Of a stretch of 41,016 nt of DNA, positions 7,736 to 41,016 are shown piece after piece. The notes under the pieces are model-generated. The model saw only the letters and a list, made by a program, of their open reading frames with translations. It had not been told where the DNA came from and made no database searches. Position numbers and translations under genes: made by a program. The stretch is from Calditrichota bacterium (GTDB taxonomy: Bacteria; Calditrichota; Calditrichia; JAJRVZ01): contig JAJRVZ010000056.1 of the NCBI GenBank assembly GCA_024277055.1, forward strand, positions 1 through 41,016. Reading direction: 5' to 3'. The first letter of the stretch is position 1. Each line of letters opens with the position of its first letter.

Positions 7736-8353
7736 TTACTTGTTATTGGTAAAAAAACGACCGGCGGTTATATTTTCAGGATCAAGAATCAGAATATCCG
7801 CGAAGGTTTTTGCAGCTTGATCAATTTCACCCATAGCCTGCTTGATCAGCGCATATTCCGTAAGAAAGCTGACATCGATCGGGTACACGGTCAGCATTTT
7901 TATGGCTATTTTTTCCGCGACATCATATTTCTGTTGCAAGCGCAAAGCAACCAGTAATCGCAGGTTTGCATAATAATTATAATAATCGACGTTCATAATA
8001 TTGAAGGCTTCTTCTTCAACCTGATCATATTTGCCCTGGGCCAGGAGTGGAAGCAGTCGGCCGACTTTTGCTTCGAGTGAATATGGAGTGGATTCAAGGG
8101 CGGTTTCGTAGTGCTCAATTGAATTGGCATAATTTGCATTCAGATAGTAGAGCCAGGCAAGGCGGATGTTTACGGTGTAGCCCTTCGGAAATTGCTCATA
8201 AACCGGCAAAAGTGCTTTGATAGCATCGGGGTAGTTTTGCATCTTTTCATAATTATATGATTTCAGATAGGCAGCTTTAATTACAGAATCGTTCGATTGC
8301 GCGGAAACAGCCAATCCGCTTAAAAGAAATATAACGAAAACCATTCGTTTCAT
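7736..8353 (-). CDS. Periplasmic TPR-repeat protein
   Basis: A 205-residue exported protein with a signal peptide (residues 1-18, ending AVSAQ) and helical repeats of the TPR type across most of its length. Examples are AIKALLPVYEQFPKGYTVNIRLAWLYYLNANYANSIEHYETALESTPYSLEAKVGRLL and the C-terminal AAKTFADILILDPENITAGRFF. TPR proteins act as scaffolds for protein complexes; the partner is not visible. It starts 19 bp after the FG-GAP gene, with AGGAAA upstream of its ATG, and is the last gene of the seven-gene block that begins with the PqqD-like gene. Confidence 0.82.
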   Translation of the reverse strand: MKRMVFVIFLLSGLAVSAQSNDSVIKAAYLKSYNYEKMQNYPDAIKALLPVYEQFPKGYTVNIRLAWLYYLNANYANSIEHYETALESTPYSLEAKVGRLLPLLAQGKYDQVEEEAFNIMNVDYYNYYANLRLLVALRLQQKYDVAEKIAIKMLTVYPIDVSFLTEYALIKQAMGEIDQAAKTFADILILDPENITAGRFFTNNK

Positions 8354-8372: not shown

Positions 8373-10010
8373 TTAACGAAGCAACGTCAGTTTTTGGGAT
8401 AACATTAAATCGCCTGAGAGCATTTGCAGTATATAGGTTCCACTGGATAACAACGCCCCGTTCTGATCCAAACCGTCCCATTTTATCGTGTGCCAGCCGG
8501 CAGCCATTTCACGGTTTATCAGTGAACGCACCAGCCGACCGGTAATATCAAATACATGCATTTCAACGCGGTCCGTTTTGGGAATAAAAAAATGGATATT
8601 TGTCTGTGGATTAAACGGATTCGGAAAGCTGGGATAAAGACGGGCCTCTCCCGGAATTGCCGCTCCGGGATCATCCAGCGAGCTCACCGCACCGTGCTCC
8701 AAAACCTGCACATGGGGTTTTATACGATTCAAACTGAAAGAGCTGAGTACCAGTTCTCCCCGGCCGTCATTATCCAGATCGGCGCTTGCAATTTTGGCAA
8801 CACCGAACAGGGCATCATTCTGTCCGGTATCTTCATAAATCACCGATTCCTGATAGCTCTGCTTTTGTGAAACGTCTCCACCCTGGTATTCCCAGTCGAA
8901 TACCCTGCTTACGGTACCGGCTGTATCAACCGCAGCCAGATAAAGGTCTGCACCATCCGGTATTTGCCCTTCCGGCGAATCGGCATTGGATGAAATGACC
9001 TGTGTGAATACAAATCCGCCATTTGTGAATTTATCATCCAGCAAGTGCGCACTGTCGGTAAAATTCATAGCTTCGATATCACCGTTATTTGTCAACACCC
9101 AGAATTTTCCCTCAATACTCGTCACATACAACTCCTGCAGACCATCGGCGTCAAAGTCCTTTGCCACCAATCCTTCATTGCTGAAGGCGAGCGGCTGTTC
9201 GGAAAGATAAAAATCGTTAGCCAGGCGATAATTATCCTCCGCCTGGTTTTCATACATCAACAGACGATTGTAATTCCACTCAACGGCATGCACTTCTTTT
9301 TGTCCGTCTCCGTCCAGGTCGCCCGTGCAAAGGGCATAACAATAGAATGACATACTGCTGTCATCGTTCATCTCCACGTTCCACTGCGGCGAGGACAAAT
9401 CACTTCCGTTTGCCAGTTCGGCGATGATCAGATGACTGGCCAGCGGATCGCGCCCATAGACGGCCATAATCAGTTCGGATTGAGGATCACTATCAATGTT
9501 GTCGATTTGTATTGCGGACGATTCCAGAACCCCGCCGGATAATCCCAAATCCCAGGTTGCGGTAGCTGTGGCCGGGAATCTTCCGGCCAGTTGATCATAT
9601 TCAAATATATGCAGCGCGTCCTGTCCTGCCAGGCAATCGTTCAAAACGATAATTTCAGGATTACCGTCACCGTCGAGATCGCCAAAATTAACAACGGAAT
9701 AATTGTCATTTTCGGCATCAAGGTCCGGAAACCATGCATACCAGTCGATTTTAAAGGAATCTGTCCCGGTTGATTCGTAAAGTACCGCATCGTTTCCGAA
9801 ACTGCCGCTCCAGGAACTGCTGTAGAGAAATTCTCCCCGCCCGTCCTGATCAAGGTCGAACCCGCTTCTCAGCGACCATATCGAGCCAGTGGGCGTGAGA
9901 CCGCCTTCAGACCATGGCAGATCATGCCAGGTGGGCTGGAATACATTATCCCAGGTTTGCCCGGATGCAGTCAGGGCGGCAACGAGTAATATGATTACTG
10001 TATATTTCAT
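8373..10010 (-). CDS. Secreted FG-GAP/VCBS-type repeat protein with type IX-like C-terminal sorting domain
   Basis: A 545-residue secreted protein with a signal peptide (residues 1-17). Its body carries about six calcium-loop repeats of the FG-GAP/VCBS type: DLDQDGRGEFLYS, DLDGDGNPEIIVL, DNIDSDPQSELIMA, DLDGDGQKEVHAV, DFDADGLQELYVT, DLDNDGRGELVLS. This suggests a beta-propeller stabilised by Ca2+. The last 85 residues (YPSFPNPFNPQTNIHF, then VFDITGRLVRSL, GWHTIKWDG, LSSGTYILQM) match the FlgD-like/T9SS type A sorting domain of FCB bacteria, so the protein is probably placed on the cell surface or released. It lies between the barrel gene and the TPR gene, with gaps of 53 and 19 bp. Confidence 0.88.
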   Translation of the reverse strand: MKYTVIILLVAALTASGQTWDNVFQPTWHDLPWSEGGLTPTGSIWSLRSGFDLDQDGRGEFLYSSSWSGSFGNDAVLYESTGTDSFKIDWYAWFPDLDAENDNYSVVNFGDLDGDGNPEIIVLNDCLAGQDALHIFEYDQLAGRFPATATATWDLGLSGGVLESSAIQIDNIDSDPQSELIMAVYGRDPLASHLIIAELANGSDLSSPQWNVEMNDDSSMSFYCYALCTGDLDGDGQKEVHAVEWNYNRLLMYENQAEDNYRLANDFYLSEQPLAFSNEGLVAKDFDADGLQELYVTSIEGKFWVLTNNGDIEAMNFTDSAHLLDDKFTNGGFVFTQVISSNADSPEGQIPDGADLYLAAVDTAGTVSRVFDWEYQGGDVSQKQSYQESVIYEDTGQNDALFGVAKIASADLDNDGRGELVLSSFSLNRIKPHVQVLEHGAVSSLDDPGAAIPGEARLYPSFPNPFNPQTNIHFFIPKTDRVEMHVFDITGRLVRSLINREMAAGWHTIKWDGLDQNGALLSSGTYILQMLSGDLMLSQKLTLLR

Positions 10011-10063: not shown

Positions 10064-10951
10064 TTAAAACGTGTATCCAAAAACCATCGTATAATTCATG
10101 GCCTTTACAATTTCACCGCGGAAAGGTTCTTTGAACAATTCCCTGCTCCATTTGAATTCGGCCGAAATTTTTGCGTTCCATACCCGACGCAATGAAAGCG
10201 AAAAAGCATTCAGATGTTTTTCCGCCAGGTTGTACACGACAAATCCTTTCCCGGTAACAGCAAAAATCCGGTAGCCCGTCCACCACTCCGCCTTTGCCGT
10301 CCAGTTTCCCGAAAAATAGCTGAGACTGTACTGAACCGACGGCAACTGCGTTTGAGCGAATCCTATTTCCTCGGAAAGCCGGATATAGGTTCCTCTCAGC
10401 TCCGAGTAGAACCAGGGACCGGTAAAATAATTACCAAGATAAAAACCGAACCAGGCATCCGTCTGTATTACGTTCAGTGAGGGTACGTAATTTTCATAAA
10501 GCGAGTAATAGACATTAACGCCGGTTTCGTAATACTGGTCCCTGTACCTGTTAATACCTGCGAACAGAACGTAACTTTTATCCGTCAGGGCATCATCGGT
10601 AAAGATACCATGCATGCCAAGGTTCAAGCGCAGATCCGTCAGCTGGTAATTGGTATAATTGAATGAAATATCCGTCTGGTTCAGGCTCGAACCGGGCTGC
10701 CTGTACTCCACTCCGTCGTACAAGTAGGAAAATCCACGGTAATTTATTTTCGTGTAAGCCGCATCCATCTCAAAGGAATGTTCCGGGCCATAGCCGTAGA
10801 AAGCGTATACCCCGCCGACAATCGTTCTGTTTTTTGACAATGCACCATCATAACTCGAGAAAAGAGTATAGGGCAATATATCCAGCCGGGATTTTGTCTG
10901 GGCGGTTGACACAGTTACCAAAGCGAACAGTATTATCCACAGATACCTCAT
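10064..10951 (-). CDS. Outer-membrane beta-barrel protein
   Basis: A 295-residue protein with a signal peptide (residues 1-17, ending VSTAQ). It then shows alternating amphipathic strands rich in aromatic residues through to a terminal Phe (MVFGYTF), the usual end of an outer-membrane barrel. The even strand spacing suggests about 12-14 strands. The specific family is not recognised; it resembles the YaiO/porin-like barrels of FCB bacteria in general style only. Its ATG overlaps the stop of the urea-transporter/M23 fusion by 4 bp, so the two are translated together, which suggests a functional link between an inner-membrane transporter/peptidase and an outer-membrane channel. Confidence 0.75.
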   Translation of the reverse strand: MRYLWIILFALVTVSTAQTKSRLDILPYTLFSSYDGALSKNRTIVGGVYAFYGYGPEHSFEMDAAYTKINYRGFSYLYDGVEYRQPGSSLNQTDISFNYTNYQLTDLRLNLGMHGIFTDDALTDKSYVLFAGINRYRDQYYETGVNVYYSLYENYVPSLNVIQTDAWFGFYLGNYFTGPWFYSELRGTYIRLSEEIGFAQTQLPSVQYSLSYFSGNWTAKAEWWTGYRIFAVTGKGFVVYNLAEKHLNAFSLSLRRVWNAKISAEFKWSRELFKEPFRGEIVKAMNYTMVFGYTF

Positions 10952-13017
10952 TGTTTTCTCCTCAATTCAAGGTTACGCACCCTGATATATTCAAAACCGG
11001 CGAATTCATCCAGCTTTACGGTGCAGGTTTCATCAATCCCCAGGTATCCTGATTTGATTTCCCCTTCAACGGTCAGATCATCCTTCCATTTTCCGGAATA
11101 GGTAATCCGGTTCAGATCATGGTAAAAAGAACTTAAAAACAACGTTGCCCCTCTTTTGAAACCACTGACAACGGAACCTACGGGGATGGTATCCTCCCAG
11201 GACATTTCTTCTTTAAACGCCAGCGGCAAGCGGGGCAAGGCCATAAACATTTTATTTAAATAGTTATCTTTTCCTTCCACGCGATAAAAATAAAACGTTC
11301 CTTCATGTTTTCCGAAATACAGCCGGCCCTTTCCGGAATCAAAGTAAAACAAACCATCCGGTGCCATTTTCACTTCCAGTTCCAGTTCATCCGTTTTACT
11401 GCCATTTTGATAAACCGCAAATGAATGGTGCTGATCGAGGATAAAGGTCAGAGAATTATCCAGTCTTTTATTCACGGCAACCGGCTCAATGTCCTTTCCC
11501 TCGAGGGGAACCCGGTTTGAATAAAACTGATCACCGCACAAAAAATTTACAAAACTGAAAGGCAAAGTGTGGTCACCAATCTGATCCGTCGCCTGCACCT
11601 GAACATGAATATGCGGTTGCGGCGAATATCCTGAATTTCCGCATAATCCCAGCATGCTGCCACGTTCTACCCAGTCTCCCTCTTTAACCCGAAGTGACTT
11701 TTGTTTCAGGTGAGATATTTCGACATAAAAACCACGGGTATCATAGATGATAACCAGGTTGCCCCAGTTGTTGCTTTTATCCGCCTGGTCAACGGGATTA
11801 TCCGGTAAATCTTCCACAATTCGAACAACTCTTCCGCGAACAGGCGAAAGAACCGGTTTCCCAAATGCGTAATAATCATTCAGTTCCGTTCCATGATTCC
11901 CGAATGTCTGTCCGGCTTCATCCGCAATAACAAAATCATAGGCATATTTCCACGAGCCCTGGTGGGTCCATTTTCCGTCAAACCCCTGCCACACCCGCCA
12001 TTTTCCGGCAAAGGGCAGTACCAGTGTTCGCTCATGTCCTTTGAAGCGCTGCTGGTCGGTCAGATAATGATCGAGCGTTTCCTCGGGAATCTGTTTAATA
12101 AATGTCGCCAGCAGTGGATAGCGAACTATTCCGAGCACATAAATGAACGACAAAGAAATAAGATTGAAGGGTAACGTAAATGCCGGTATCCCATAGCGTG
12201 CCCAGAAAACCTCGACCGATTTCAGGAGAATGGTTGATGAGCTGACGGCAATCAGGGCCAGCACATAGCTGCGCGGTGACGGCACGAAAAACACCCCACC
12301 CAACGCAATTGAAATCAGGATAAAATTAAAACTGTTCAGGTCCTGAAACGCAATCGGGAAAGAACCGATCATGAGTGCGTTGATAATTGTACCGCTGTAA
12401 TAGCCGACGATGACCAGCAGGAAGAGGATTCGTGATGAGAATAGAATCGCCAGCAGCAACAGCAGCCCGGTCGAGGGGTACGGCATGAACAGAATGGCCC
12501 CGAGAGATTTGAGCAGCCCGCTGAACCATAACGGTAAATAAAGATCCAGCGAGGAAGCAACCGTTGGATACAGGCCGGATACAAACAGGTTTGAAAACTG
12601 CGATGATGCCAGGTAGGCAATGGAACTGATTATTACAAACGGAATGCTGAGAATCGGTAATTTGAAATAATAGCTGAATACATTGTGCAGCATCATCGTA
12701 ACTACAAATGTGAATACTCCGGCGGTTACAACAAAAAAGATCGTCAGCGGAGTCATTCGAAACAGATAGCCGATTGAAAGCCCGACCAGCAACGGATTAT
12801 AGGTATAAAAACCATCTTTCAAGAACTGCCTGTCGACGTTTATGAAATTAGCGAATATATAAGCTGAAACGACTGCGATTATACCGGCAGACGCGATATT
12901 GGGATTGACAACTGTAAGCAGCAGAAACAATGCTCCGAGAACGTAGCCGTTCAAAAAAAATATTTCGGAATAACTGCTCAGAATTGCGTTGGTATGTTCA
13001 CGAACCGCCGTTTTCAC
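10948..13017 (-). CDS. Fusion of urea transporter (UT family) and M23 peptidase domain
   Basis: A 689-residue protein. Residues 1-305 form a bacterial urea-transporter domain: about ten helices in two inverted repeats, with the NPLLVGL motif at 74-80 and the two LPxxTxPF-type selectivity motifs (KLPILSIPFVI at 119-129 and IPAFTLPFNLI at 277-287). Residues 330-480 form an M23/LytM domain: His352 and Asp361 (WTHQGSWKYAYDF), SHL at 435-437 and the zinc-binding HIH at 469-471. The spacing of the first His resembles an M23 subfamily with YAYDF/YALDF rather than HxxxD. Residues 490-689 are beta-rich and unrecognised. UT domains conduct urea or related small amides; M23 domains cut peptidoglycan cross-bridges or glycine-rich peptides. 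GTG start. It overlaps the barrel gene and follows the decarboxylase gene by 66 bp. Confidence 0.85.
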   Translation of the reverse strand: MKTAVREHTNAILSSYSEIFFLNGYVLGALFLLLTVVNPNIASAGIIAVVSAYIFANFINVDRQFLKDGFYTYNPLLVGLSIGYLFRMTPLTIFFVVTAGVFTFVVTMMLHNVFSYYFKLPILSIPFVIISSIAYLASSQFSNLFVSGLYPTVASSLDLYLPLWFSGLLKSLGAILFMPYPSTGLLLLLAILFSSRILFLLVIVGYYSGTIINALMIGSFPIAFQDLNSFNFILISIALGGVFFVPSPRSYVLALIAVSSSTILLKSVEVFWARYGIPAFTLPFNLISLSFIYVLGIVRYPLLATFIKQIPEETLDHYLTDQQRFKGHERTLVLPFAGKWRVWQGFDGKWTHQGSWKYAYDFVIADEAGQTFGNHGTELNDYYAFGKPVLSPVRGRVVRIVEDLPDNPVDQADKSNNWGNLVIIYDTRGFYVEISHLKQKSLRVKEGDWVERGSMLGLCGNSGYSPQPHIHVQVQATDQIGDHTLPFSFVNFLCGDQFYSNRVPLEGKDIEPVAVNKRLDNSLTFILDQHHSFAVYQNGSKTDELELEVKMAPDGLFYFDSGKGRLYFGKHEGTFYFYRVEGKDNYLNKMFMALPRLPLAFKEEMSWEDTIPVGSVVSGFKRGATLFLSSFYHDLNRITYSGKWKDDLTVEGEIKSGYLGIDETCTVKLDEFAGFEYIRVRNLELRRKQ

Positions 13018-13083: not shown

Positions 13084-14454
13084 TTAATCATTTTTCTCCG
13101 GTTTTTTAACCTCAATTATTAATCGTCCGGGCAAGCGTTCGTTTCTTTCAATATCTTCCAGTGATTCGGAAACCCGGATCAGATCAACGGTTCCGTTTTC
13201 ACTGATCAAAACCACGTTGGGACGATATTCGATGAATTGCATCCATTGTGTGTTATTGTAAGCCCCGATGGGTGAAATGATCAGTCGGGTTCCGCGCTCC
13301 AGGGGCGGTAGTAAACTGCCCTCATCGATCACATCGATATTCATGCACAGCGGCCCGTAAATTATTGACGGCTCATTCAGTCCTGACAGTTCCCGGTCCA
13401 CTTCGATATTAAATTTGTACCAGAAGGAAGTAAACAGATTATTTACACCGGCATCGGTAATGTACGCACGGCGCCCGTCCGGCAGCCTTTTTGAGGCGAA
13501 CAGGGTGGTAATCATGGACCCGGCTTCATCGACAATCGCCCTGCCGTTTTCGAGGATCAGTTCCGGGAAATCTCCGGGTTTTAAATTGCGGTACAAGGCA
13601 TCGGTTATTTTTTCCGCGTAACTGTCCAGGGAAGGGATCGCCACTTCCGGCGGCAGGTAGGTACCTTTCAGTTTGCTTTGTGACGGCAAGCCGCCACCGA
13701 TATCGATATACTCGATATTGAAACCAAACTGCTCTTCCACTTCATTGGCAAATTGTACCATTTTTTCTACTTCCACCGCATAGGCATCAGGTTCAAGAAT
13801 ATAGGTACCGATATGGCAGTGAAGTCCGTTCAGAACGATTTTGCCCGCCCCGGCCATTCGTTTTACGGCATCCAGGGCCTGACCCGATTCCAGGTTGAAT
13901 CCGAAGCGCGACCATTGCGGATGAATACCGGTATCCATGTTCAGGCGCATGCCGGCTTTAATTTTTTTCTTAAGTTTATCGCTGACCTTTTCCAGATCAA
14001 AAATTTCATCCATGTGATCAATATTTATTTTGGCGCCCTCTTTTGCCGCCTTTTCCAGGGCCGGCATCGATTTATGCGGTCCGTTGAATATGATTTGATT
14101 ACCGGGGATACCCAGTTTCCTGGCCTTATCGTATTCCATTTCGGAAACCACTTCCGCGATCGCCCCTTCCTGGTGCAGAACAGCGCAGATGGCCTGCAGA
14201 TAGTTGGTTTTGTACGACCAGCCGAATGTTACCTGCGGGTAGCGATTCTGAAACAAACCGTACAATTCACGATAGCGGTTGCGAAGTTTTTGTTCCGAAA
14301 ATACATACAACGGTGAACCGAATTTACCGACCAGTTCGGCTATTGGTACCGAATCAATCTCCGTGCGTATTTTACGGGCATATAATGGACTGCTGCCGAA
14401 TTTATTCATCATTCCGGATTGCAGCTTGGTAATTACTGGTTTTTCGTATTTCAT
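13084..14454 (-). CDS. Fold-III PLP-dependent decarboxylase (DAP/ornithine/arginine decarboxylase family) with leader-like N-terminus
   Basis: A 456-residue alanine-racemase-fold decarboxylase related to LysA. The PLP lysine is K82 (GWSYKTNY). Other conserved parts are HCHIG, DIGGGLPS (phosphate loop), LENGRAIVDEAG (the EPGR motif with N for P), GPLCMNIDVID (catalytic Cys and Asp of the CxxxD motif) and ISPIGAYNNTQWMQF. Such enzymes remove the alpha-carboxylate of a basic or diamino acid; the substrate is unknown. The first 23 residues (KPVITKLQSGMMNKFG) do not belong to the fold and look like a short RiPP-type leader. The gene overlaps the ATP-grasp gene by 4 bp, next to a PqqD-like gene, so it is more likely part of a specialised pathway than the lysine-biosynthesis enzyme. 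Confidence 0.83.
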   Translation of the reverse strand: MKYEKPVITKLQSGMMNKFGSSPLYARKIRTEIDSVPIAELVGKFGSPLYVFSEQKLRNRYRELYGLFQNRYPQVTFGWSYKTNYLQAICAVLHQEGAIAEVVSEMEYDKARKLGIPGNQIIFNGPHKSMPALEKAAKEGAKINIDHMDEIFDLEKVSDKLKKKIKAGMRLNMDTGIHPQWSRFGFNLESGQALDAVKRMAGAGKIVLNGLHCHIGTYILEPDAYAVEVEKMVQFANEVEEQFGFNIEYIDIGGGLPSQSKLKGTYLPPEVAIPSLDSYAEKITDALYRNLKPGDFPELILENGRAIVDEAGSMITTLFASKRLPDGRRAYITDAGVNNLFTSFWYKFNIEVDRELSGLNEPSIIYGPLCMNIDVIDEGSLLPPLERGTRLIISPIGAYNNTQWMQFIEYRPNVVLISENGTVDLIRVSESLEDIERNERLPGRLIIEVKKPEKND

Positions 14455-15494
14455 TTGGGATTTTCTCCTCTGGTAGTCATATTTTGAAAAGCCGTCATTT
14501 CCGTGATCGTCTCCCAGGTATAACGCACATACAGTTTACCTGCATCGTAGTCATCCGGGATATCGGGTTCTCGACCCTGCAGACAGCGGATGATATTTGC
14601 CGGCAGATTAATCCCGACCCCGGTCGCAAAATAAGACCAGGCAGGAAGCCGGGGATTGATCTCTATTAAATAAACGGTATCCCCCTCTACTATGCACTCA
14701 AGTTCGAAACCGCCTTTCCATTTGTATTCCGTCAGAAACTTTTCGGCGGCGTCAGACATTGCCCGATGCTTTATTGTCACTCCCGTCCAGATTTTGCCGA
14801 GTGAAGTAATCCACATTTTTTTTATCCCGACCATTCCAAGAGAACGGCCGCTGCCGTCTCCCGCACCGACGACATTCAGCTCTTCGCCGGAAACACTTTT
14901 CTGAACAATGACCGGATACCCCCACTCGGCAACTATTTTATTATAATAGCCCGCCGCTTCCTGGCTTGTGTAAGCGCGATAGGCTTTGTAAAACGCACCT
15001 TTTACCATTAACGGCAGACCCAGCTTTTCAATCGCTTCATTTAAATCTTCATAGGAAGTTACGACCCTGGATGGCGGTGTTTTAACACCGATAGTTTTCG
15101 CCACTTCCTCCAGTCGGTCTTTACCCCGCAACCGGAATTGTTCGGCATCGGGTACAAACGTATGAATGCCATTCTCTTTCAACTCATCCTGATATTTAAT
15201 AATCAACGGCAATTCCGCATCCAGATTGGAGATTACGGCATCCAATCCGTAGTTTTGTTTGATATAGTATAAACGTTTTAAAAATGCCTCCTGTCCGCCT
15301 GAAGGATACGGCAACAGAAACGAACGCTCAAACAGATCATTCAAGTATATTCCGGGATCCATGGCGTCATACGCCAAACCATATAGTTTCAAATCCAGGT
15401 CTTCCGCCTCCAGCAGGCTGCGTGCCACGCCGACACCCGGTCCGGGATTATCAACCGCATTGATTCCCGTAATACCAACACACCATTTTGACAC
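14451..15494 (-). CDS. ATP-grasp domain ligase (CarB/PylC-like)
   Basis: A 347-residue protein: an N-terminal pre-ATP-grasp Rossmann-like part (GITGINAVDNPGPGVGVARSL; DAVISNLDAELPLI), the central ATP-binding lobe (RLRGKDRLEEVAKTIGVKTPPS; LPLMVKGAFYKAYRA) and the catalytic lobe ending in GGFELECIVEGDTVYLIEINPRLPAW, whose ExNPR motif binds Mg-ATP. ATP-grasp enzymes activate a carboxylate as an acyl phosphate and join it to an amine; this subgroup is close to carbamoyl-phosphate-synthase-like and amino-acid ligases. The start is GTG with AAAGGA upstream. It sits 32 bp after the PqqD-like gene and overlaps the PLP decarboxylase gene, so the three are almost certainly co-translated. Confidence 0.85.
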   Translation of the reverse strand: MSKWCVGITGINAVDNPGPGVGVARSLLEAEDLDLKLYGLAYDAMDPGIYLNDLFERSFLLPYPSGGQEAFLKRLYYIKQNYGLDAVISNLDAELPLIIKYQDELKENGIHTFVPDAEQFRLRGKDRLEEVAKTIGVKTPPSRVVTSYEDLNEAIEKLGLPLMVKGAFYKAYRAYTSQEAAGYYNKIVAEWGYPVIVQKSVSGEELNVVGAGDGSGRSLGMVGIKKMWITSLGKIWTGVTIKHRAMSDAAEKFLTEYKWKGGFELECIVEGDTVYLIEINPRLPAWSYFATGVGINLPANIIRCLQGREPDIPDDYDAGKLYVRYTWETITEMTAFQNMTTRGENPK

Positions 15495-15526
15495 ACGCTA
15501 TCCTTTCAATAAAAATGTCATAGAAT

Positions 15527-15763
15527 TTATACAATGCCCATGCTCTTAAGTTGTTGCAAAAAATCACTCATGTCCCGTTGCAATTCCTCCGGAACCTCAT
15601 CGAAAGTTTCAGTTAATTGCTTTTCAATTTCAGTTTCGGTTAATCCTTCTTTCAGTTTATTCAATATGAACAATCCGGTTGAGTTCACCGTAAAGCTCTC
15701 TCCCGTTGTCGGGTCAAAAACAAAACCTTCATCGTTAACCGCCAGGTGCTGGATTCTGCTCAT
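15527..15763 (-). CDS. PqqD-like protein (RiPP recognition element)
   Basis: A 78-residue cytoplasmic protein with the PqqD fold: an N-terminal three-strand hairpin (HLAVNDEGFVFDPTTGESFTVN), the turn STGLFILNKLKEG and three helices (TETEIEKQLTETFD; EELQRDMSDFLQQLKSMGIV). PqqD-like domains bind the leader part of a precursor peptide and hand it to a modifying enzyme. No separate precursor gene is visible; the leader-like N-terminus of the nearby decarboxylase is one candidate ligand. The ATG at 15763 is preferred over the one at 15769 because AAAGGA then lies 7 bases upstream. It is the first gene of a seven-gene block. Confidence 0.82.
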   Translation of the reverse strand: MSRIQHLAVNDEGFVFDPTTGESFTVNSTGLFILNKLKEGLTETEIEKQLTETFDEVPEELQRDMSDFLQQLKSMGIV

Positions 15764-15875
15764 TTGCATCCTTTCTTTTTGTTCGCATTTTTTTCATAAT
15801 CTATTAATTTACACGAATATCATCAAAATTCAATTCCCGTGATGCATCCGTTTAAAGAGATCACGGATTAACAGC

Positions 15876-18557: not shown

Positions 18558-20951
18558 TCACTTGTTTAGATTAAGATGAAACGCTTTTGAGTGAATAGAT
18601 ATTTTGAAGAAGCCAAGCGAAATCAGAATATAAAAGACGGCTGCCGTCCACAATGCAAAGGTAAATCCAAATAGAATACCGATAATCATGGCAAGAACAG
18701 AGCCGGTAATTGCTGCGATTCCGTTGATACCCCAGCACAGGTAAATATACTCTGATAAATTCATGGCCGAGAGTTTATTCATCGCCGCCGGAAACGGTAT
18801 CCCCAGCAAAATCCCCAAAGGCAAAATTGTTACCATCGATGTTATGAATATACTATCGTTTGCCTGGTAAACCGCAGGGATCAGTTTTGAAAGCGCAACC
18901 GATACCACTGCAATTGCCAGCGACACCAGGGAAATTGTCTTAAATTTATTTTCTTTTATAAAATTACTCAGGAAACTGCCTGTTCCGGTTCCAAGCAGTA
19001 AAGAAAACAAGAGGACACTAATCGCTTCCAGGGGATTATCCGTGAATATATTCAGTTTTTGCAGGGAAGCGATTTCCAGTAACATGAATCCCGCACCGCT
19101 GGAAAAAAATATAAGGTAAAACCACTTTAATTCCGGATGAAGCGCAACGGATTTAAACAGCGAGAACGAATACTTTTCCGGATTACCCTTAATCGCCGTC
19201 ATATACAAAAGCAGGAAGAATACCAGAACGATAATCAGAAAAAAAACTCCGAAAGGCGCCGGTAAACCCTTTTGAAATTTGTAAAAAAACGGTTTATCAT
19301 CATGAACGGCGCCGATGTCGAAAGAGGCCGCCTGTCTGACTTCCTCCGGAGTAACCTGACCATTGTATAGAGCGACCAGAACCTGATCAAACATCCGCCA
19401 GGGCAAATCCAGCCCTAAAAGACTTGCCGGACGAATTTCCGGTGCCTGCCGGTAAGGAAGAAAGAAATTTCCGTTCACAAAACCCAGTTTATGCATCAGC
19501 TGGTGTCTGGCCTGCGTTTCTTCCACCCGAAAGGGTGTTTTTTTTATCACCAGGGTTGGCATCATGCCCGATGCAATGGTATAAATATGATTCATTGATA
19601 GTGAAGGATCAATGCCTTTTTCATTGAAGTACTCAATTACCATCATAATAAGACGATAGATTTCAGCATCATTGTGCGCAACGATGACAATTCTGCCTTC
19701 TGAAGTCAGATGGTCAACATATTCCGAAATCGCCTCGACGGTAAACAGGAAGTTTTCAGTCAAACTGTAACCTTCAATGCTTCTGCTGCTTTTGGTAATC
19801 GGAATTGAAGCCATAATAAGGTCATATTTCAAATTGGATTTTCTTAAATAATTTCGGGCATCGGCAACAACTACATTTACATTCGGGTAATCGCGATATA
19901 ATCCGCCGTTATATTCAGCGTAATCATTCATGATTTGAACAATTTGCGGATTTACCTCCACGGCAGTTATGTGTTTTACCCCTCCGAGCAGTGCAACCAC
20001 CACATCTCTTCCACCACCCGGTCCGATAATAAATGCGGAGTCCTTTTCGGATTCCGTCAGAAAGTAGAAAGGAAAAAATTCACCGAAATGATACCTCAGA
20101 TGAACGGATTTCAGAGAATCGGCCTGTATTTCCCGCCAATTATACATTGCCGATCCGGCTGCTCCGTCAACGAACATGCTCAAGTATCCGCTGCCCTGTT
20201 TTCCCCTCACCAAATCTGTGCGCCCGAAGGCACTCCATCGGCTGTCTATTATTTTTCCCTTTTCGTAAGGGTTGTTGATGAAGCGCAGCAAGTCCTTATT
20301 AGCGTTCTCCGCGACCTGTAACACAGGTTTTTCCATAAATATATTTACACCGATTGCCGCGATCAGGACCAGTACAATGCTGAATCCCGATGATATTTTC
20401 CAGTCTCTTGCGGGAACGGAAAACAGAAGGGACGCCAAAGCCAGAATAATAGAAGCAAGGAAGGCCACATTCACCACACTGAACTGATTCAGTATCGGAA
20501 TTGTTACCAATGTAGCAATTGCCGCACCGAAAATATCAAAGGCATAAACCATGCTGCTTTTATGCGGGAATTTTTGAAAAACACCAGCCATTACCAGGCC
20601 GAAGAAGAAGAAGGGTACCGCAGCTGCGGCAATATAAATCCATTCGCTGAATGTCCCGCCGAAACCAAGGGCCTTAACCGGGTCGAAGATCAACACCAGT
20701 ATCAAAATCAAAGAAGTGAAAGATGTCATGGCAACATTTACCGGCAAATCATTCATCGGAAATATCTGATACCATTTCTTCAGCGCCATTCCGCCAAGTC
20801 CGATGCTCATCACCGAAAGGGACAGAATCAAATAGACAAAGTGATAGTCAAATTTAACCGAGAACAGCCTTGTCAATACCAGTTCGAACATCATCAAACT
20901 AAAACTGGTTAGAAATATTGCCGAATAATTATACTTGCCCTGCCCTGACAT
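18558..20951 (-). CDS. Membrane-embedded spermidine-synthase-like protein
   Basis: A 797-residue protein with an N-terminal set of about six membrane helices (residues 8-205), a central Rossmann methyltransferase/aminopropyltransferase domain with SAM-type motif I (FIIGPGGGRDVVVALLGGVKHITAVEVNP, near 300-330) and DLIMASIPITKSSRSIEGYSLTENFLFT further on, and a C-terminal half with about seven helices. It belongs to the 'fused' SpeE-like membrane proteins, whose reaction is not established; the acidic residues that bind polyamine in true SpeE are not clearly kept. In many genomes such genes sit next to respiratory or metal genes. It lies between the cupredoxin and YHS genes. The ATG at 20951 is favoured by GGAG six bases upstream; the ATG at 20954 is an alternative. 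Confidence 0.78.
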   Translation of the reverse strand: MSGQGKYNYSAIFLTSFSLMMFELVLTRLFSVKFDYHFVYLILSLSVMSIGLGGMALKKWYQIFPMNDLPVNVAMTSFTSLILILVLIFDPVKALGFGGTFSEWIYIAAAAVPFFFFGLVMAGVFQKFPHKSSMVYAFDIFGAAIATLVTIPILNQFSVVNVAFLASIILALASLLFSVPARDWKISSGFSIVLVLIAAIGVNIFMEKPVLQVAENANKDLLRFINNPYEKGKIIDSRWSAFGRTDLVRGKQGSGYLSMFVDGAAGSAMYNWREIQADSLKSVHLRYHFGEFFPFYFLTESEKDSAFIIGPGGGRDVVVALLGGVKHITAVEVNPQIVQIMNDYAEYNGGLYRDYPNVNVVVADARNYLRKSNLKYDLIMASIPITKSSRSIEGYSLTENFLFTVEAISEYVDHLTSEGRIVIVAHNDAEIYRLIMMVIEYFNEKGIDPSLSMNHIYTIASGMMPTLVIKKTPFRVEETQARHQLMHKLGFVNGNFFLPYRQAPEIRPASLLGLDLPWRMFDQVLVALYNGQVTPEEVRQAASFDIGAVHDDKPFFYKFQKGLPAPFGVFFLIIVLVFFLLLYMTAIKGNPEKYSFSLFKSVALHPELKWFYLIFFSSGAGFMLLEIASLQKLNIFTDNPLEAISVLLFSLLLGTGTGSFLSNFIKENKFKTISLVSLAIAVVSVALSKLIPAVYQANDSIFITSMVTILPLGILLGIPFPAAMNKLSAMNLSEYIYLCWGINGIAAITGSVLAMIIGILFGFTFALWTAAVFYILISLGFFKISIHSKAFHLNLNK

Positions 20952-20986
20952 CATTCACTCCATGGTTGACCGACGTTTGGGATTCA

Positions 20987-21379: not shown

Positions 21380-24031
21380 TTATTTATTGAGTTTTAAACG
21401 ACGTAAACGATTGGCGTTCGTTACAACCGTAACCGAGCTGAATGCCATCGCTGCTCCTGCAAGCATCGGTGAAAGCAATACACCGAAAAACGGGTAAAGT
21501 ACGCCGGCTGCAATGGGCAGCCCCAAACCGTTGTAAAAGAATGCGCCGAACAGGTTCTGGCGAATGTTCCGCATGGTTGCGCGGGATATCTGGATTGCCG
21601 TAACCACGCCGTTCAGACTTCCCTTGATCAGGGTAATATCAGAAGCTTCAATCGCCACGTCTGTGCCGGATCCTATCGCAAATCCGATGTCCGCCTGGGC
21701 CAGGGCCGGAGCATCATTGATGCCATCCCCAACCATCGCCACGCGTTTTCCTTCCAATTGCAGCTTTTGTACGTTGAAGGCTTTATCTTCAGGCAGAACT
21801 TCCGCAAGCACACGATCAACATTCACCTCGCGGGCGATGGCATCTGCCGTACGTTTATTATCACCGGTGAGCATGACGACTTCCAGCCCCAGTTTCTTTA
21901 AGCGGGCAATCGCTTCCTTCGAGTCCTCTTTCACCGTGTCGGCTACAGCAATAATTCCGGCCACTTTTTTATCAATTGCAACAAACATGGGGGTTTTGCC
22001 GTTGTCCGCCAGCTTAGAACCCTTCTGAATCAGTTCGCCAGGATCAAGATTTTGCTGCAGCATGAATTTTATATTGCCCAGCAGAATTCTGTGTCCGTCA
22101 ACGTCTGCTTCCACACCATGACCGGGAACAGCATTAAAATCCTGAGTTTCCATTAACTTGAGTTTCTTGTTCTTTGCTTCTTCAAGGATCGCCTCACCCA
22201 GCGGATGCTCCGAACCCCTTTCGACACTTGCGGCAAAGGTGAGGATTGTTCTAACATCCAGGCCGTCGGCCGTCACTACATCGGTTACTACCGGCTTTCC
22301 CGCCGTAATCGTTCCGGTTTTGTCGAGAACCACCACATCCAGTTTCTGCGCACTTTCCAGCGCTTCCCCGCTGCGGATCAATATTCCGTTCTCAGCCCCT
22401 TTTCCAACGCCAACCATCAAACTGATCGGTGTTGCCAGACCAAGTGCACAGGGACAGGCTATAATCAGCACCGTTACAAAGACAATTAAGGAATAAATAA
22501 GATTAGGTTGTGGACCGAAATCGTACCAGGTTACAAACGAAAGTATGGCTATAATGATCACCGCCGGTACAAAATATCCTGCAACTTTGTCTACGATTCG
22601 TTGAATAGGCGCTTTCGAACTCTGCGCCTGCTGTACCATTTTAATGATCTGGGCCAGTGCCGTATCTTTTCCGACTTTCGTTGCCTTGAATTTAAAGGAA
22701 CCGGTTTTGTTGATCGTTGCACCGATAACTTCATCATTTTCGTGCTTTTCGATCGGGATCGGTTCACCGGTTATCATCGATTCGTCAACGGAAGAACTAC
22801 CCTCAACGATCACCCCGTCAACCGGTATCTTTTCGCCGGGCCGAACGACAATGACATCATCCAGAACGACTTCTTCAACCGGCAAATCCATTTCTTCTCC
22901 ATTGCGAACCACCCGTGCGGTTTTCGGTTGCAGGCCGATCAGTTTTTTAATTGCCTCGGAACTTTTACCCTTGGCCCTGATTTCCAGCGCCATTCCCAAT
23001 ACCACCAACGCCACGACCACCGAAATGACATCAAAGAATTGATCAGCCAGTTCCTGACTTGGAAATATCTGCGGAAAAAACGCCGCCGTGCTGGAATAAA
23101 GCCAAGCGGCACTAATACCGGTTGCGATTAAAGTATGCATATTTGCGGAATGGTTCTTGAAAGCAGCCCACGCGCCCGTAAAAAACTGAGAACCGGACCA
23201 GAACATTACCGGCAGAGAAATAACAGACATGGCTACCCATATCCATTGCAGTGTTTCGCTTCCCCGCTGGAATTGCCGTGGCAGGCCCCATAACTCCGGA
23301 TAACTGAAAAACATTACCGGAAGTGAAATAATACCGGCAAATATGAATTTTCGCAATAAAGTTTTATATTCCCGTTCGCGTGCCAGCTGGTTTTCATCCT
23401 GCTGATCCTTTCCGTCATCGGTGCCGGGCGATACCGAATCGGTAACTTCATATCCCAGGTCGGTGATGACTTTCTTGATCTGATCAATCTGCACCGCGGA
23501 TGGAATATAAGTGACATGCGCGCTTTCACCGGCCAGGTCTACACTGGCCGAAAGAATGCCGGAACTGGTAAACAATTCCGATTCTATTTCGGTTACGCAT
23601 GAAGCACAGTGCATTCCGTGAATACCCAGGTCCAGTTCAGCACGTCCGACTTTATATCCACTCTGCTTTACGGCTTCCACCACATGCTCTACAGCCAGAA
23701 GGTTCGGATCATAATCAAGGTATAATTTTTCCGAACCGTAATTAACATTTGCCGCTACCACACCGTCAAGCAGATTGACGTTTTTTTCTATGGTAGTGGC
23801 GCAACTCGCGCAATCCATTCCCAGTATTGGGATTTCCACCCTTTCAATCCCGCTTTTATTTACCCGGTAAGTTGCGGATTGGCTTCGTGGTTTGATATAT
23901 TTATCAGGCTCAGCATCAAATTTTTCTTTGCATGTTGCCGAGCAAAACTCGTATCGGCTCCCTCCGAATTCTGTTATAAAGGTTCCTGTGGATTCCAGCT
24001 CCATACCACAAACCTTGTCAACAACTTTCAT
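21380..24031 (-). CDS. copA: Copper-translocating P-type ATPase (YHS plus two HMA domains)
   Basis: An 883-residue P1B-type ATPase. An N-terminal YHS domain ([21 protein letters not shown]; residues 3-47) is followed by two HMA domains with GMDCASC (Cys74, Cys77) and GMHCASC (Cys142, Cys145). The core has the CPC motif ([12 protein letters not shown]), [11 protein letters not shown] (phosphorylated Asp), SEHPLGEAI (HP motif), [14 protein letters not shown] and [20 protein letters not shown], plus the final helices with [16 protein letters not shown]. It exports Cu(I) from the cytoplasm at the cost of ATP. The ATG at 24031 with GGAGG upstream is chosen; 53 residues of upstream open frame include promoter DNA. 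It heads an operon with the cupredoxin, two YHS proteins and NDH-2. Confidence 0.95.
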
Positions 24032-24067
24032 TTTATCCTCCAAAAGTAGATATTTGAGGGAGTATAG

Positions 24068-24083
24068 TTCACAAATCATGCCA
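24068..24083 (-). promoter_or_regulatory. Sigma-54-like promoter upstream of copA
   Basis: The minus strand reads TGGCAT, GATTT, GTGAA, preceded by TT, with the GG-to-GA spacing of a sigma-54 promoter. Transcription would begin about 27 bases before the copA ATG, nearly the same leader length as at the 16607 promoter. The -12 box is weaker than at the other two sites. Confidence 0.5.
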
Positions 24084-24145
24084 AAACCATAACTATCTGT
24101 TTTTATAAACTTTATAAACACAACCGGCAATTGATTCAAATAAAA

Positions 24146-24183
24146 TGAAGAATATTCCACAGGCAACTGCAGAATATTCTTCA
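24146..24183. promoter_or_regulatory. Paired palindromic operator sites (pair 2)
   Basis: TGAAGAATATTCCACA (24146-24161) and TGCAGAATATTCTTCA (24168-24183) share the core AGAATATTC with the other two pairs and again have centres 22 bp apart. They lie between the Rieske gene and copA, about 72 and 94 bp upstream of the sigma-54-like -24 box. These are the most diverged copies. Confidence 0.72.
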
Positions 24184-24226
24184 ACCGCAAACAAGGCAGG
24201 GTTTTGAGGTGGGAAATTCAGATGGG

Positions 24227-34912: not shown

Positions 34913-37900
34913 CTAACTTTCAACAGTTACCGTTGTATTATCCTCATCTGCTTCAATATCTTCCGCCAATCGTTTTACTTCATGACTTTTCCACAGATAG
35001 TAAATTGCCGGAATAACAATCAGCGTAAGCAGTGTAGAGGAAACCATACCGCCGATCATCGGGGCGGCGATGCGTTTCATAACCTGTGAACCGGTACCGT
35101 GGCCCCACATAATCGGGATAAGACCGGCCATGATTGCCATAACCGTCATCATTTTCGGGCGGACACGTTCAACGGCGCCCTCAATGATGGCTTCATAAAG
35201 GTCCTTCAGGCTGCGCATGGCCCCTTTGTATTTGCGGTCATCATACGCATGATCAAGGTAGATCAGCATAACCACTCCCGTTTCCGCAGCCACACCGGCC
35301 AGGGCTATAAACCCTACTCCGACGGCAACACTGAAGTTGTACCCCAAAAGATACATGAACCAGATACCGCCCACCAGCGAAAAGGGCAGCGATAACATCA
35401 CGATTATCGATTCCTGCACATTTTTGAAATTAAAGAACAGCAACAGGAAGATAACCACCAGGGTGATCGGAATAACTATTTTAAGTCGTTCCTGTGCCCT
35501 TTCCATGTATTCATATTGCCCGCTCCAGACAATGCTGTAGCCTTCCGGAAATTCGATCTGTTCGGCAACCGCTTTTTTGGCATTCTGGACATAAGTGCCG
35601 ACATCGATGTCACGAATATCAACATACAGCCAGGCCGTAGTACGGGCATTTTCACTTTTAATGACCGGCGGGCCTTTCACCACGCCAATATCCGCAACAT
35701 AATTCAGCGGAATCTGCGCACCGGTCGGTGTCGGGATCAACACCCGTCGCAGAGCCGCAAGATTGTCCCGCAATTCGCGACTATATCGAACATTTACGGG
35801 GTAGCGTTCCAGCCCTTCGACCGTATACGTAACATTCATTCCGCCGATAGCCGACATGATTACATCCTGAACGTCACCGACCGTCAATCCGTAACGGGCG
35901 GCCTCCTTGCGCTTAATGGTAAAATCGAAAAAGTTTCCGCCGACTGTTTTATCCGGAAAAACGCTCAGCGTACCGGGTACATCCTGTATAACCAGCGCAA
36001 TATCCTGTCCGAGGTCGGATAGTTTTTGCAGATCGTCACCCATCAGTTTTATACCGATTGGCGTTTTAATGCCGGTTGAAAGCATGTCAATCCGGGTTTT
36101 GATGGGCATGGTCCAGGCATTGGTTAATCCGGGAAATTGAATAGCATCATTCAGTTCACGAATCAGTTTGTCCATTGTCATTCCCGGCCGCCATTCTTCT
36201 TCGGGCTTCAGCGTTATCGTGGTTTCGATCATCGACAACGGCGCCGGATCGGTGGCGGTTTCCGCCCTTCCTATCTTGCCGAAAACATGGTGCACCTCCG
36301 GAAAACTTTTGATAATTTTATCCGTCTGTTGCAAAATCTCCTTCGCTTTTGTAATGCTGATTCCCGGATCGGTAGTCGGCATGTACAAAAGGTCCCCTTC
36401 GTTCAGCGGAGGCATGAATTCGGAGCCGATATGCTCCAGGGGAAAAATTGAAACAACCAGAATTACCAGAGCGATACCGATGGTTGTCCATTTAAACCGC
36501 AGTACTGCATGGATGACCGGACGATATATTTTGATCAAAAATCGGTTAATCGGGTTTTTTTCTTCCGGAAGTATTTTTCCGCGGATCAGATACCCCATTA
36601 AAACCGGCACAAGGGTCAGAGAAAGGATCGCTGCGGCAGCCATGGAATAGGTTTTCGTGAAGGCCAGAGGTTTGAACAGGCGACCTTCCTGTGCCTGCAG
36701 CGTAAAAATGGGCAGAAAGGACAAGGTTATGATCAACAGAGAATAAAACAGCGCAGGGCCGACCTCCTTCGACGAGTCGATAATGATCTGCCAGTGATCT
36801 TTTTTACCTCCGTCGCGCTCAATGTGCTTATGCGCGTTTTCTATCATCACAATTGCCGCATCAACCATAGCTCCTATGGCGATGGCGATGCCGCCGAGGG
36901 ACATGATGTTGGCGTTTAATCCCTGATAATGCATGACCATAAAAGCCATTAAGATTCCGATCGGCAAGGTAAATATAGCCACGAAGGCACTCTGAAAGTG
37001 AAGCAGGAATATGATACTTACCAGGGCAACAACAATGCTTTCCTCGATCAGTTTCTCTTTCAGATTGTCGATGGCACGTTCAATCAGGCCGGATCGATCA
37101 TAAGCGGTTTTGATGGTGACACCTTCCGGAAGTCCCTTTTCAAGTTCTTTCAGCTTCTCTTTGACAAGCTCAATCGTTTTGAGTGCGTTTTCGCCGAACC
37201 GCATAACGATAACACCACCAACCGTTTCACCTTCACCGTTCCAGTCGGCAAGCCCGCGGCGCAATTCCGGCCCGAGATGGACATTGGCAATATTTTTAAC
37301 CAGTATCGGTGTTCCGGTAACATCGACGCCGACAGGAATATTTTCAACATCTTCTATCGATTTGATGTACCCGAGTCCGCGAACCATGAATTCGGTTTCA
37401 CCCATTTCAACCAGCTTGCCGCCGACATCATTGTTGCTGCGTTTGATAGCCATGCGTACTTTGTTGATGGGGATTTTATACGCCAGCAATTTATTAGGGT
37501 CCACTTCCACCTGGTACTGCTTGACGTAGCCCCCGATACTGGCTACTTCCGCTACACCCGGCACACTTGTAAGTTCATAGCGAAGGTACCAATCCTGTAT
37601 GGAACGCAACTGCTGCAGATCATATTTATCGCCTCCATCCAGCACATATTCATAAACCCAACCGACTCCGGTCGCATCGGGTCCCAGGGTCGGTGTAACC
37701 CCCTGGGGCAGACGATTGGAAACGTAATTCAGATATTCCAGCACCCTGCTTCGCGCCCAGTATAAATCCGTATTATCTTCGAAAATTATATAAACAAAGG
37801 ACAATCCGAAAAATGAATATCCCCGCACAACTTTTGCATAAGGTACCGCCAGCATGGCTGTCGTCAGCGGATAGGTTACCTGATCTTCCACCACCTGCGG

Positions 37901-38071
37901 CGCCTGTCCCGGATATTCGGTAAAAATGATTACCTGTACATCACTCAAATCCGGAATAGCGTCTACCGGCGTGTTGAGTAAAGCATACACTCCTCCCAGG
38001 GTAAGCATGGCGGTAAACAGAATCACCAGAAAGCGGTTATTCACAGACCATTCTATTATTTTTTCTAACAT
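34913..38071 (-). CDS. cusA: CusA/CzcA-type heavy-metal efflux RND pump
   Basis: A 1052-residue inner-membrane pump of the HME-RND class. It has helix 1 (RFLVILFTAMLTLGGVYALL), the following TPVDAIPDLSDVQVIIFTEYPGQAPQVVEDQVTYPL loop that marks CusA/CzcA, the GAMVDAAIVMIENAHKHIER helix 4 with proton-relay Asp, SEFMPPLNEGDLLYMPTTDPGIS and PIMWGHGTGSQVMKRIAAPMIGG near the end. It takes Cu(I)/Ag(I) or divalent metals from periplasm or membrane and drives them out through the adaptor and outer-membrane channel using the proton gradient. The Met triad that separates Cu pumps from Zn/Co/Ni pumps was not assigned, so the metal is inferred from the neighbours. It starts 65 bp after the adaptor gene. 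Confidence 0.94.
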   Translation of the reverse strand: MLEKIIEWSVNNRFLVILFTAMLTLGGVYALLNTPVDAIPDLSDVQVIIFTEYPGQAPQVVEDQVTYPLTTAMLAVPYAKVVRGYSFFGLSFVYIIFEDNTDLYWARSRVLEYLNYVSNRLPQGVTPTLGPDATGVGWVYEYVLDGGDKYDLQQLRSIQDWYLRYELTSVPGVAEVASIGGYVKQYQVEVDPNKLLAYKIPINKVRMAIKRSNNDVGGKLVEMGETEFMVRGLGYIKSIEDVENIPVGVDVTGTPILVKNIANVHLGPELRRGLADWNGEGETVGGVIVMRFGENALKTIELVKEKLKELEKGLPEGVTIKTAYDRSGLIERAIDNLKEKLIEESIVVALVSIIFLLHFQSAFVAIFTLPIGILMAFMVMHYQGLNANIMSLGGIAIAIGAMVDAAIVMIENAHKHIERDGGKKDHWQIIIDSSKEVGPALFYSLLIITLSFLPIFTLQAQEGRLFKPLAFTKTYSMAAAAILSLTLVPVLMGYLIRGKILPEEKNPINRFLIKIYRPVIHAVLRFKWTTIGIALVILVVSIFPLEHIGSEFMPPLNEGDLLYMPTTDPGISITKAKEILQQTDKIIKSFPEVHHVFGKIGRAETATDPAPLSMIETTITLKPEEEWRPGMTMDKLIRELNDAIQFPGLTNAWTMPIKTRIDMLSTGIKTPIGIKLMGDDLQKLSDLGQDIALVIQDVPGTLSVFPDKTVGGNFFDFTIKRKEAARYGLTVGDVQDVIMSAIGGMNVTYTVEGLERYPVNVRYSRELRDNLAALRRVLIPTPTGAQIPLNYVADIGVVKGPPVIKSENARTTAWLYVDIRDIDVGTYVQNAKKAVAEQIEFPEGYSIVWSGQYEYMERAQERLKIVIPITLVVIFLLLFFNFKNVQESIIVMLSLPFSLVGGIWFMYLLGYNFSVAVGVGFIALAGVAAETGVVMLIYLDHAYDDRKYKGAMRSLKDLYEAIIEGAVERVRPKMMTVMAIMAGLIPIMWGHGTGSQVMKRIAAPMIGGMVSSTLLTLIVIPAIYYLWKSHEVKRLAEDIEADEDNTTVTVES

Positions 38072-38136
38072 TTATCTTTACTCCGATTTTTCAACTTTTG
38101 TATTATTTCTGGATTGAACCATTCATTTCCCGTATT

Positions 38137-39753: not shown

Positions 39754-39800
39754 CTCAAACTCCACTTCTATCTTTAATCTTTATTTTTTCCGTGTTTCCG

Positions 39801-41016
39801 TCAATTATCCAGGCGGATACCGATCAAATATTCCAGGTCGGCTACCGTTTTATTATAGGCACTTAAAATGCGAAAATAATCCAGTTCAAAATTGAACAAG
39901 GTCATCTGATTATTAATCAACGTCAGAAAATCGACTTTATCCGTTTGATAACCGGTCATTGCAGATTGTAATGATTGCGATGCCTGCGGAATGATACCGG
40001 TACGGTACAGATCCAGCTGTTCAATGTTTTTGCGAATATTGCTCAAGCCCTGGTCCAGCCTGGAATTTACTTTATTAACAACATCATAATATCTTTCTTC
40101 GATTGCCTTTTGCGTAAGCCGGGTTTCTTCCACCTTTTTACTTTGCTTGGTTCCGGAATAGATCGGCAGGTTTAAACTGATCCCCCCGGAAAAAAAATCG
40201 GCGCCACCCATACCGGATTGTAACTCGTCCCGCTGCGTATAGGCCATGGCGATACTGAAATCCGGCCAATAATCTTTCCTGGCCAGTTCAACCGTTTTTT
40301 CGCTTTTGCGGCGCATGGCTTCCCAGGCCTGTATCAGGGGCCTGCTCTGCAACGCTTTTTGCTTGACACTTTCAAGATCATCAGCTACCGGCACAATACC
40401 CGGTTCAGCCGCTCTTCCAAGTGCGGTTCCGGCCGGTCGGTTCAGCAGGGCGTTCATTCTGGCCTCAACGGCCTCCCGTTGTTCCCGCAGACTTATCAGT
40501 TTATCAGTCATTTTTGATAATTCAACCTGCGCTTTTAAAACATCCTGCTGCAACCCCTTGCCCACAGTGTATTTCGTTTCAGCGATTTTGACGAATTCCG
40601 TCAGCAGCGATTGATTTTTACGAACGGTTTTTATTGCTTCTTCCGTGAAAAAGAGGTCAAAATAGGTTTTCTTTACGTCTCTTATTAATTGATTCATCAA
40701 TTCCCGGTACCGGGCTTCTGTCACGGCTGCCGCCTCACTGGCGATATCTTCCCGCAACCCCAGTTTCCCGAAAAACGGAAATTTTTGCATCAAGGCTATT
40801 TGTTTTCCGGTCATCGCCTCCTGGTCGAATGCCCAGCTCTCAACCGGCAGATTCATCAGATTCAGTGATAAAATCGGATCCGGTAAAGAACCCGCCTGTG
40901 GAATCCTGGCTTCGTCGGATTTGACCGCATGCCCCAACGCCTTCAGCTGAGGATTGTTTTCAACCGCTTCGGCCAGTAAATCCTTCAGGTTCTCCACCCG
41001 TGTCGTGTCTCCCGCA
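39801..41016 (-). CDS. cusC: TolC/CusC-family outer-membrane channel, N-terminus off right edge
   Basis: About 405 codons are present; the signal peptide and first residues lie beyond base 41016. The visible protein begins inside the family's first helix (LKDLLAEAVENNPQLKALGHAVKSDEAR), then shows DPILSLNLMNLPVES, the long coiled-coil helices (EAAAVTEARYRELMNQLIRDVKKTYFDLFFTEEAIKTVRKNQ; FVKIAETKYTVGKGLQQDVLKAQVELSKM), the second repeat (AKQSKKVEETRLTQKAIEERYYDVVNKVNSRLDQGL) and ends at a membrane-strand region. A GTG at 40997 is in frame, but the open frame continues upstream, so it is not the start. It forms the outer-membrane exit for the CusBA pump encoded downstream. Confidence 0.9.
   Translation of the reverse strand, partial: AGDTTRVENLKDLLAEAVENNPQLKALGHAVKSDEARIPQAGSLPDPILSLNLMNLPVESWAFDQEAMTGKQIALMQKFPFFGKLGLREDIASEAAAVTEARYRELMNQLIRDVKKTYFDLFFTEEAIKTVRKNQSLLTEFVKIAETKYTVGKGLQQDVLKAQVELSKMTDKLISLREQREAVEARMNALLNRPAGTALGRAAEPGIVPVADDLESVKQKALQSRPLIQAWEAMRRKSEKTVELARKDYWPDFSIAMAYTQRDELQSGMGGADFFSGGISLNLPIYSGTKQSKKVEETRLTQKAIEERYYDVVNKVNSRLDQGLSNIRKNIEQLDLYRTGIIPQASQSLQSAMTGYQTDKVDFLTLINNQMTLFNFELDYFRILSAYNKTVADLEYLIGIRLDN

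Follow-up and report, generated by a model that had tools for sequence, protein, structure and literature searches.

The PqqD-like discrete RRE of a three-gene cassette very probably binds the N-terminal tag of the decarboxylase encoded beside it, as its groove residues and the tag motif suggest. The ligand would be this tag and not a precursor peptide. The recognition pair is a known one; its use on an enzyme, as it appears here, was not found described in the literature searched. A limited literature search, which is not proof of absence, gave no paper joining PqqD with a urea transporter or PqqD with Mariprofundus. On the combination of RRE, ATP-grasp and PqqD it gave one survey alone (PMC12710340), without mention of decarboxylases.

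Cassette of three genes, all on the minus strand of the window (the whole stretch of DNA analysed, 41,016 nucleotides). The PqqD-like protein is encoded at 15527–15763 and has 78 aa from the conserved Met (PF05402, E 7e-14; 52.4 bits, cut-off 23.4). An in-frame ATG is also present upstream at 15769 (ORF of 80 aa); relatives begin at the Met at 15763. The ATP-grasp ligase is encoded at 14451–15494, has 347 aa and a GTG start, and is CPSase-like (PRK12767-type) by Pfam and NCBIfam: the Pfam ATP-grasp match (E 2e-5) is slightly below the curated cut-off, CPSase_L_D2 is above it, and the NCBIfam matches are PRK12767-like. Ligase identity across cassette relatives is 36–72%. The decarboxylase, encoded at 13084–14454, is a PLP enzyme of the alanine-racemase fold (fold type III) with 456 aa (Orn_Arg_deC_N, E 1e-32). 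Its closest solved structure by sequence is N-citrylornithine decarboxylase 7KH2; the same is found by fold for a relative. The spacing in the original prediction is confirmed, with a gap of 32 bp between the PqqD and ATP-grasp genes and an overlap of 4 bp between the ATP-grasp and decarboxylase genes.

The cassette PqqD scores 20 bits with the PQQ biosynthesis equivalog TIGR03859 (cut-off 46). With HPr-rel-A (TIGR04353) it is above the cut-off, at 45.2 bits versus 35; HprK-related kinase A and its partner genes are absent among the 8 region proteins scanned. The decarboxylase scores 220.8 bits with the FslC model NF041039 (cut-off 500) and 214.7 bits with the LysA model TIGR01048 (cut-off 297.9); a separate, distant paralogue is present in the same genome. 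The lasso B2 transglutaminase-like protease and the asparagine-synthetase-like cyclase are absent among the scanned neighbouring proteins and the conserved neighbours.

The tag comprises decarboxylase residues 3–20 (YEKPVITKLQSGMMNKFG; positions 14395–14448, minus strand) and has the consensus YEKPVIxxLxxGxMNKFG. It is kept in 85 of 85 aligned loci. Residue 3 is aromatic in every one of them (Y 58, W 27) and residue 6 is always Pro; residue 8 is mostly I/L/F, and motif position 6 is I/L/F/M in 110 of 110. Further residues are kept to a high degree: Gly14 in 81, Asn17 in 80, Lys18 in 79, Phe19 in 69 and Gly20 in 75 of the 85. Lys18 is replaced by Pro in L033 (NPLG) and by Arg in L066 and L077; in Campylobacterales SKAG stands in place of MNKFG. 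The tag is followed by a linker, residues 21–32 (14359–14394, minus strand), which is gapped and relaxed and differs in both sequence and length between loci. The decarboxylase fold starts near residue 30. The leader-like character proposed for this N-terminus is borne out, for it matches the discrete-RRE motif [Y/W]xxPx[I/L]. The residues are indeed foreign to the fold, as had been claimed; the motif quoted begins too late, however, since the Tyr two residues ahead of KPVI is a defining residue.

Values of pN/pS over 609 pairs are 0.095 for the tag, 0.32 for the linker and 0.14 for the enzyme body. The low value of the tag, together with synonymous sites near saturation, points to constraint on the peptide and not on DNA or RNA. 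Two other sources of the conservation were rejected: gene overlap, which is 4 bp in the window while long gaps are found elsewhere (L095), and an RNA element, in view of the saturation of synonymous sites.

Tag and cassette go together. In a tree of 91 tagged and 17 untagged sequences, the tagged ones form a single clade (support 0.999). Of the six patterns used in the locus scan, just one came from the tag; the five others covered the enzyme body, and a member without a tag would therefore have been detected. None was found in HMM searches of three phyla, and all checked loci from these searches with a complete N-terminus carry the motif. The suggested survey of the motif against the accompanying genes finds motif, PqqD and ATP-grasp together across many phyla. 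A tagless homologue beside a PqqD gene, named beforehand as a refutation, was not seen, and none of the untagged outgroups examined has an adjacent PqqD.

A single scan of species genomes gave 80 public loci with the cassette, about 49–79% identical. Their record names include Calditrichota, Aquificota, Ignavibacteria, Gemmatimonadota, Verrucomicrobia, Planctomycetota, Thiotrichaceae, Campylobacterales, Mariprofundus, Cyanobacteria and others. PqqD and ATP-grasp genes precede the decarboxylase gene in nearly all 80 loci, the exceptions being mostly truncated contigs. By whole-genome HMM search the decarboxylase gene is sporadic in the phylum of the window (3 of 40 genomes); the phylum of G049, taken as Aquificota, has it in about 42 of 136 genomes, and that of G046 in 5–6 of 39. 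Leaving aside two fragments at contig ends, the HMM matches are bimodal. The stronger group (E <1e-150) includes the tag (from model position 1–2), versus a weaker one (about 1e-60 to 1e-89) that starts within or after the tag and consists of LysA-like or other untagged relatives. One locus (L045:188-878) has, 5' of the full cassette, a second, incomplete PqqD and ATP-grasp pair and then another ORF.

The closest known counterparts of the RRE and its tag are the discrete lasso-peptide and LPP RREs TfuB1, FusB1, TbiB1, PbaB1 and LppB with their leaders, where a peptide and not a PLP enzyme bears the motif. [Y/W]xxPx[L/V/I/F/A] is the motif of discrete lasso-peptide RREs, and YxxP is essential in LPP leaders (PMC13381572). 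The leader contacts in LppB are as follows: Asp70 makes a bond to the Tyr, the kink at the Pro is fixed by Asn33, the Pro itself is sandwiched between Val35 and Phe74, Met78 lines the second pocket, and Tyr27–Asn33 pairs with the leader strand (PMC13381572). A W/Y/LxxP/L/I recognition sequence is common to the FusE, McjB, PqqD and StsC groups in a structure-based survey (PMC12710340). The natural chains of solved structure nearest to the window PqqD are the lasso RREs TfuB1 (6JX3) and TbiB1 (5V1U/5V1V), both weak matches (E 0.002 and 0.06). Among 81 non-redundant PqqDs, the groove residues N29, D66, F70 and L74 are kept in 78, 80, 80 and 79, respectively. They are spaced like N33, D70, F74 and M78 of LppB, a correspondence based on spacing and the TbiB1 alignment, not on superposition. 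Gly stands in place of D66 in the PqqD of L033. All 58 Y-tag loci have Asp at position 69 of PqqD; in the 23 W-tag loci this position is Glu (18), Asp (4) or Gln (1). Within the phylum of G046 it is Gln in the W-tag locus L005 and Asp in the Y-tag loci L136, L139 and L140. This Y/W covariation is in part a phylogenetic split due to shared descent.

AF2 was run on two natural read-through stretches, each with all three genes in one frame and folded as a single chain with stops read as Gly. For the L095 fusion, PqqD and the two enzymes are predicted with confidence for the most part; its tag is disordered and does not pack against the enzyme. In the L077 fusion, whose alignment holds more tag rows than that of L095, tag residues 451–460 (EKPIITKLKS) have a mean pLDDT of 79, with disorder on either side. 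They form a beta-strand at motif positions 6–9, about the place of the strand in solved leader complexes; its partner strand is a presumed one, and the global confidence of the model is low (pTM 0.51). The first Foldseek match of the L077 model is N-citrylornithine decarboxylase (E 7e-37, 31% identity); BtrK is among the matches.

FigC/FslC, SbnH, AcsE, MccE and BtrK are alanine-racemase-fold decarboxylases unrelated to polyamines, and several act on conjugates; the substrate of BtrK is a carrier-bound amino acid and that of MccE a modified peptide (PMC7857480). The cassette decarboxylase resembles this conjugate-acting subfamily (FigC, SbnH, MccE, BtrK). With FigC/FslC, SbnH and AcsE it shares the closest solved fold and the Met after the catalytic Cys; in their pathways a ligase forms the conjugate first. 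The ligase of FigC/FslC is a NIS synthetase, whereas that of the cassette is an ATP-grasp enzyme, and tag and PqqD are extra in the cassette. The pocket-lining residues Met371, Tyr399, Tyr346 and Thr342 of FigC are retained. The citrate-binding H357 and R387 of FigC correspond to I373 and Q403, each kept in at least 97% of loci; with His and Arg replaced, a different acyl group is expected.

BtrJ is the ATP-grasp ligase of the butirosin pathway. In BtrJ/BtrI/BtrK, as in the cassette, an ATP-grasp ligase is paired with an alanine-racemase-fold decarboxylase. BtrK differs from the cassette decarboxylase in sequence (about 22% identity), and tag and PqqD stand in the place of its carrier, if anything does. 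No carrier-protein-like gene occurs among the conserved neighbour clusters; singletons are identified in part. Two untagged ATP-grasp/decarboxylase pairs, L104 and L105, lie in surface-sugar-like clusters without PqqD or tag. They belong to the same two enzyme families as the cassette, at about 30% identity. The nearest untagged relatives, in genome G006, also have ATP-grasp genes near them in apparent surface-sugar clusters lacking PqqD and tag; the enzyme pair is thus a wider theme, and tag and PqqD are an addition to it. The L104 (1477-3809) and L105 clusters include a methyltransferase, and that of L104 NeuB-like and deacetylase-like genes as well; the enzyme pair seems to be put to a sister use there.

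Past the reported stretch, further genes follow downstream on the minus strand at gaps of 66, -4, 53 and 19 bp. Three of them, for a urea-transporter/M23 protein, a beta-barrel protein and a TPR protein, are conserved and were overlooked in the original prediction, which had the cassette right. The first gene (10948–13017, minus strand) encodes a fusion of a urea-transporter-like membrane domain and an M23 peptidase domain, 689 aa (PF03253, E 4e-65; PF01551, E 4e-12). The second (10064–10951, minus strand) encodes a probable outer-membrane beta-barrel protein with a signal peptide by its sequence and no Pfam family. The gene at 8373–10010 (minus strand), for a protein of FG-GAP repeats that ends in a sorting domain, is lodged between kept operon genes; with just two weak matches among the loci, it is itself no conserved member. 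A TPR protein with a signal peptide (7736–8353, minus strand) is probably encoded by the last operon gene. Homologues are found in at least 74 of 85 cassette loci for the urea-transporter/M23 protein (neighbour clustering), at least 51 of 85 for the TPR protein and at least 33 of 85, at the same position, for the beta-barrel protein (blastp E<1e-3). These counts are lower bounds because contigs end. With the orientation usual for the urea-transporter fold, the M23 domain of the fusion would be cytoplasmic, which would be odd. Elsewhere in the window, from sequence only, there are genes for a large membrane protein with a spermidine-synthase-like soluble part (18558–20954), for which a link to amines is possible, and a heavy-metal P-type ATPase with CzcABC-like efflux genes (21380–24190 and 34913–40997).

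The ligase contact, reaction order, substrate class, product and export that we infer are as follows. The tag segment [Y/W]xKPx[I/L] would sit in the PqqD groove as an added beta-strand. PqqD so bound would bring the decarboxylase to the ATP-grasp ligase; tethering of the two enzymes is judged a somewhat better than even guess at the purpose. The ligase would join two small molecules by an amide, and the decarboxylase would strip the alpha-carboxylate from the conjugate to give an N-acylated amine. The decarboxylated, ligated amino-acid derivative guessed as the product in the original prediction would be compatible with this. The amine may exit via the urea-transporter/M23, TPR and beta-barrel proteins. 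The reading as a whole, from docking by PqqD through ligation and decarboxylation to export, is slightly favoured. Its main unexplained point is the conservation of N17-K18-F19-G20, which lies beyond the binding motif and does not follow from docking alone.

With that conservation there is still room for a tag that is modified or serves as a carrier, with PqqD presenting the tag, the ATP-grasp enzyme loading an amino acid on it (e.g., on Lys18) and the decarboxylase acting on the loaded residue, much as BtrJ and BtrK work on the carrier protein BtrI. By analogy with the carrier-bound and modified-peptide substrates of the related BtrK and MccE (PMC7857480), and with NKFG right past the RRE motif, at the expected start of a RiPP core, such an arm is conceivable. 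It is made unlikely by the variants at Lys18 in L033, L066, L077 and Campylobacterales, which speak against an essential Lys, and by the tag core, which has no conserved carboxylate for ATP-grasp activation. The enzyme would then be its own precursor, RiPP-like, decarboxylating a residue on its own arm as a ribosomal stand-in for a carrier protein; this too is doubtful. A regulatory role is also given room, by fusions of TetR and PqqD: in Zetaproteobacteria and some Gammaproteobacteria, PqqD forms the C-terminus of a TetR-type regulator encoded directly 5' of the ligase gene. The fusion at L089:1857-2648 has PF00440 (E 1e-6) and PF05402 (E 6e-6); Pfam was applied to L089 only, and similar lengths, mainly of Mariprofundus type, occur in L074, L075, L078, L081, L083, L085, L088, L090, L091, L094, L097, L099 and L100. 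That PqqD is a sensor, whose binding of the tag reports how much enzyme is present and controls transcription or the activity of the ligase, is nevertheless rather improbable, as PqqD stands alone beside the ligase, with no DNA-binding domain, in most loci including the window.

Restriction of the tag to one decarboxylase clade would also suit a structural arm making dimer contacts or an active-site lid, its likeness to the RRE motif being coincidental. The relaxed linker between tag and fold, the unpacked tag of the L095 model, the untagged relatives that fold without it, and the match of both motif and pocket residues to RRE–leader pairs make this quite improbable. Least credible is an unseen precursor peptide elsewhere in the genome, served by PqqD and mimicked or competed with by the tag. 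Discrete RREs are found mostly in lasso peptide and PQQ clusters and serve peptides there (PMC12710340). The nine genomes searched with a tag HMM include several assembled in one to five contigs and some in one or two. The search gave no second tagged ORF: decarboxylase N-termini match at E 8.2e-12 to 7e-17, the next match at 0.115 or above. No other credible tagged short ORF is present in the fetched loci. A plasmid search gave no match. The cassette PqqD is the sole PF05402 match in 7 of the nine genomes. The absence of a precursor peptide gene, as originally proposed, thus holds for tagged ORFs in nine genomes; a motif-less precursor would escape this search. The window's genome has a second, diverged PqqD-like ORF (L151:1486-1761, on G000:C245), which adjoins a SelD-like gene and a gene for a large oligopeptide-transporter-like membrane protein, as judged from sequence.

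RREs serve as guides to peptide natural products on the assumption that their ligand is a precursor peptide. For the widespread RRE described here, the ligand seems to be an enzyme, and the operon is conserved across phyla from Aquificota to Cyanobacteria. Should docking to the decarboxylase tag be true, RREs would be general tethering modules, and some predicted RiPP clusters would not be RiPP clusters. Many chemolithotrophs and vent bacteria would then share a conserved, unnamed pathway that is testable with three soluble proteins.
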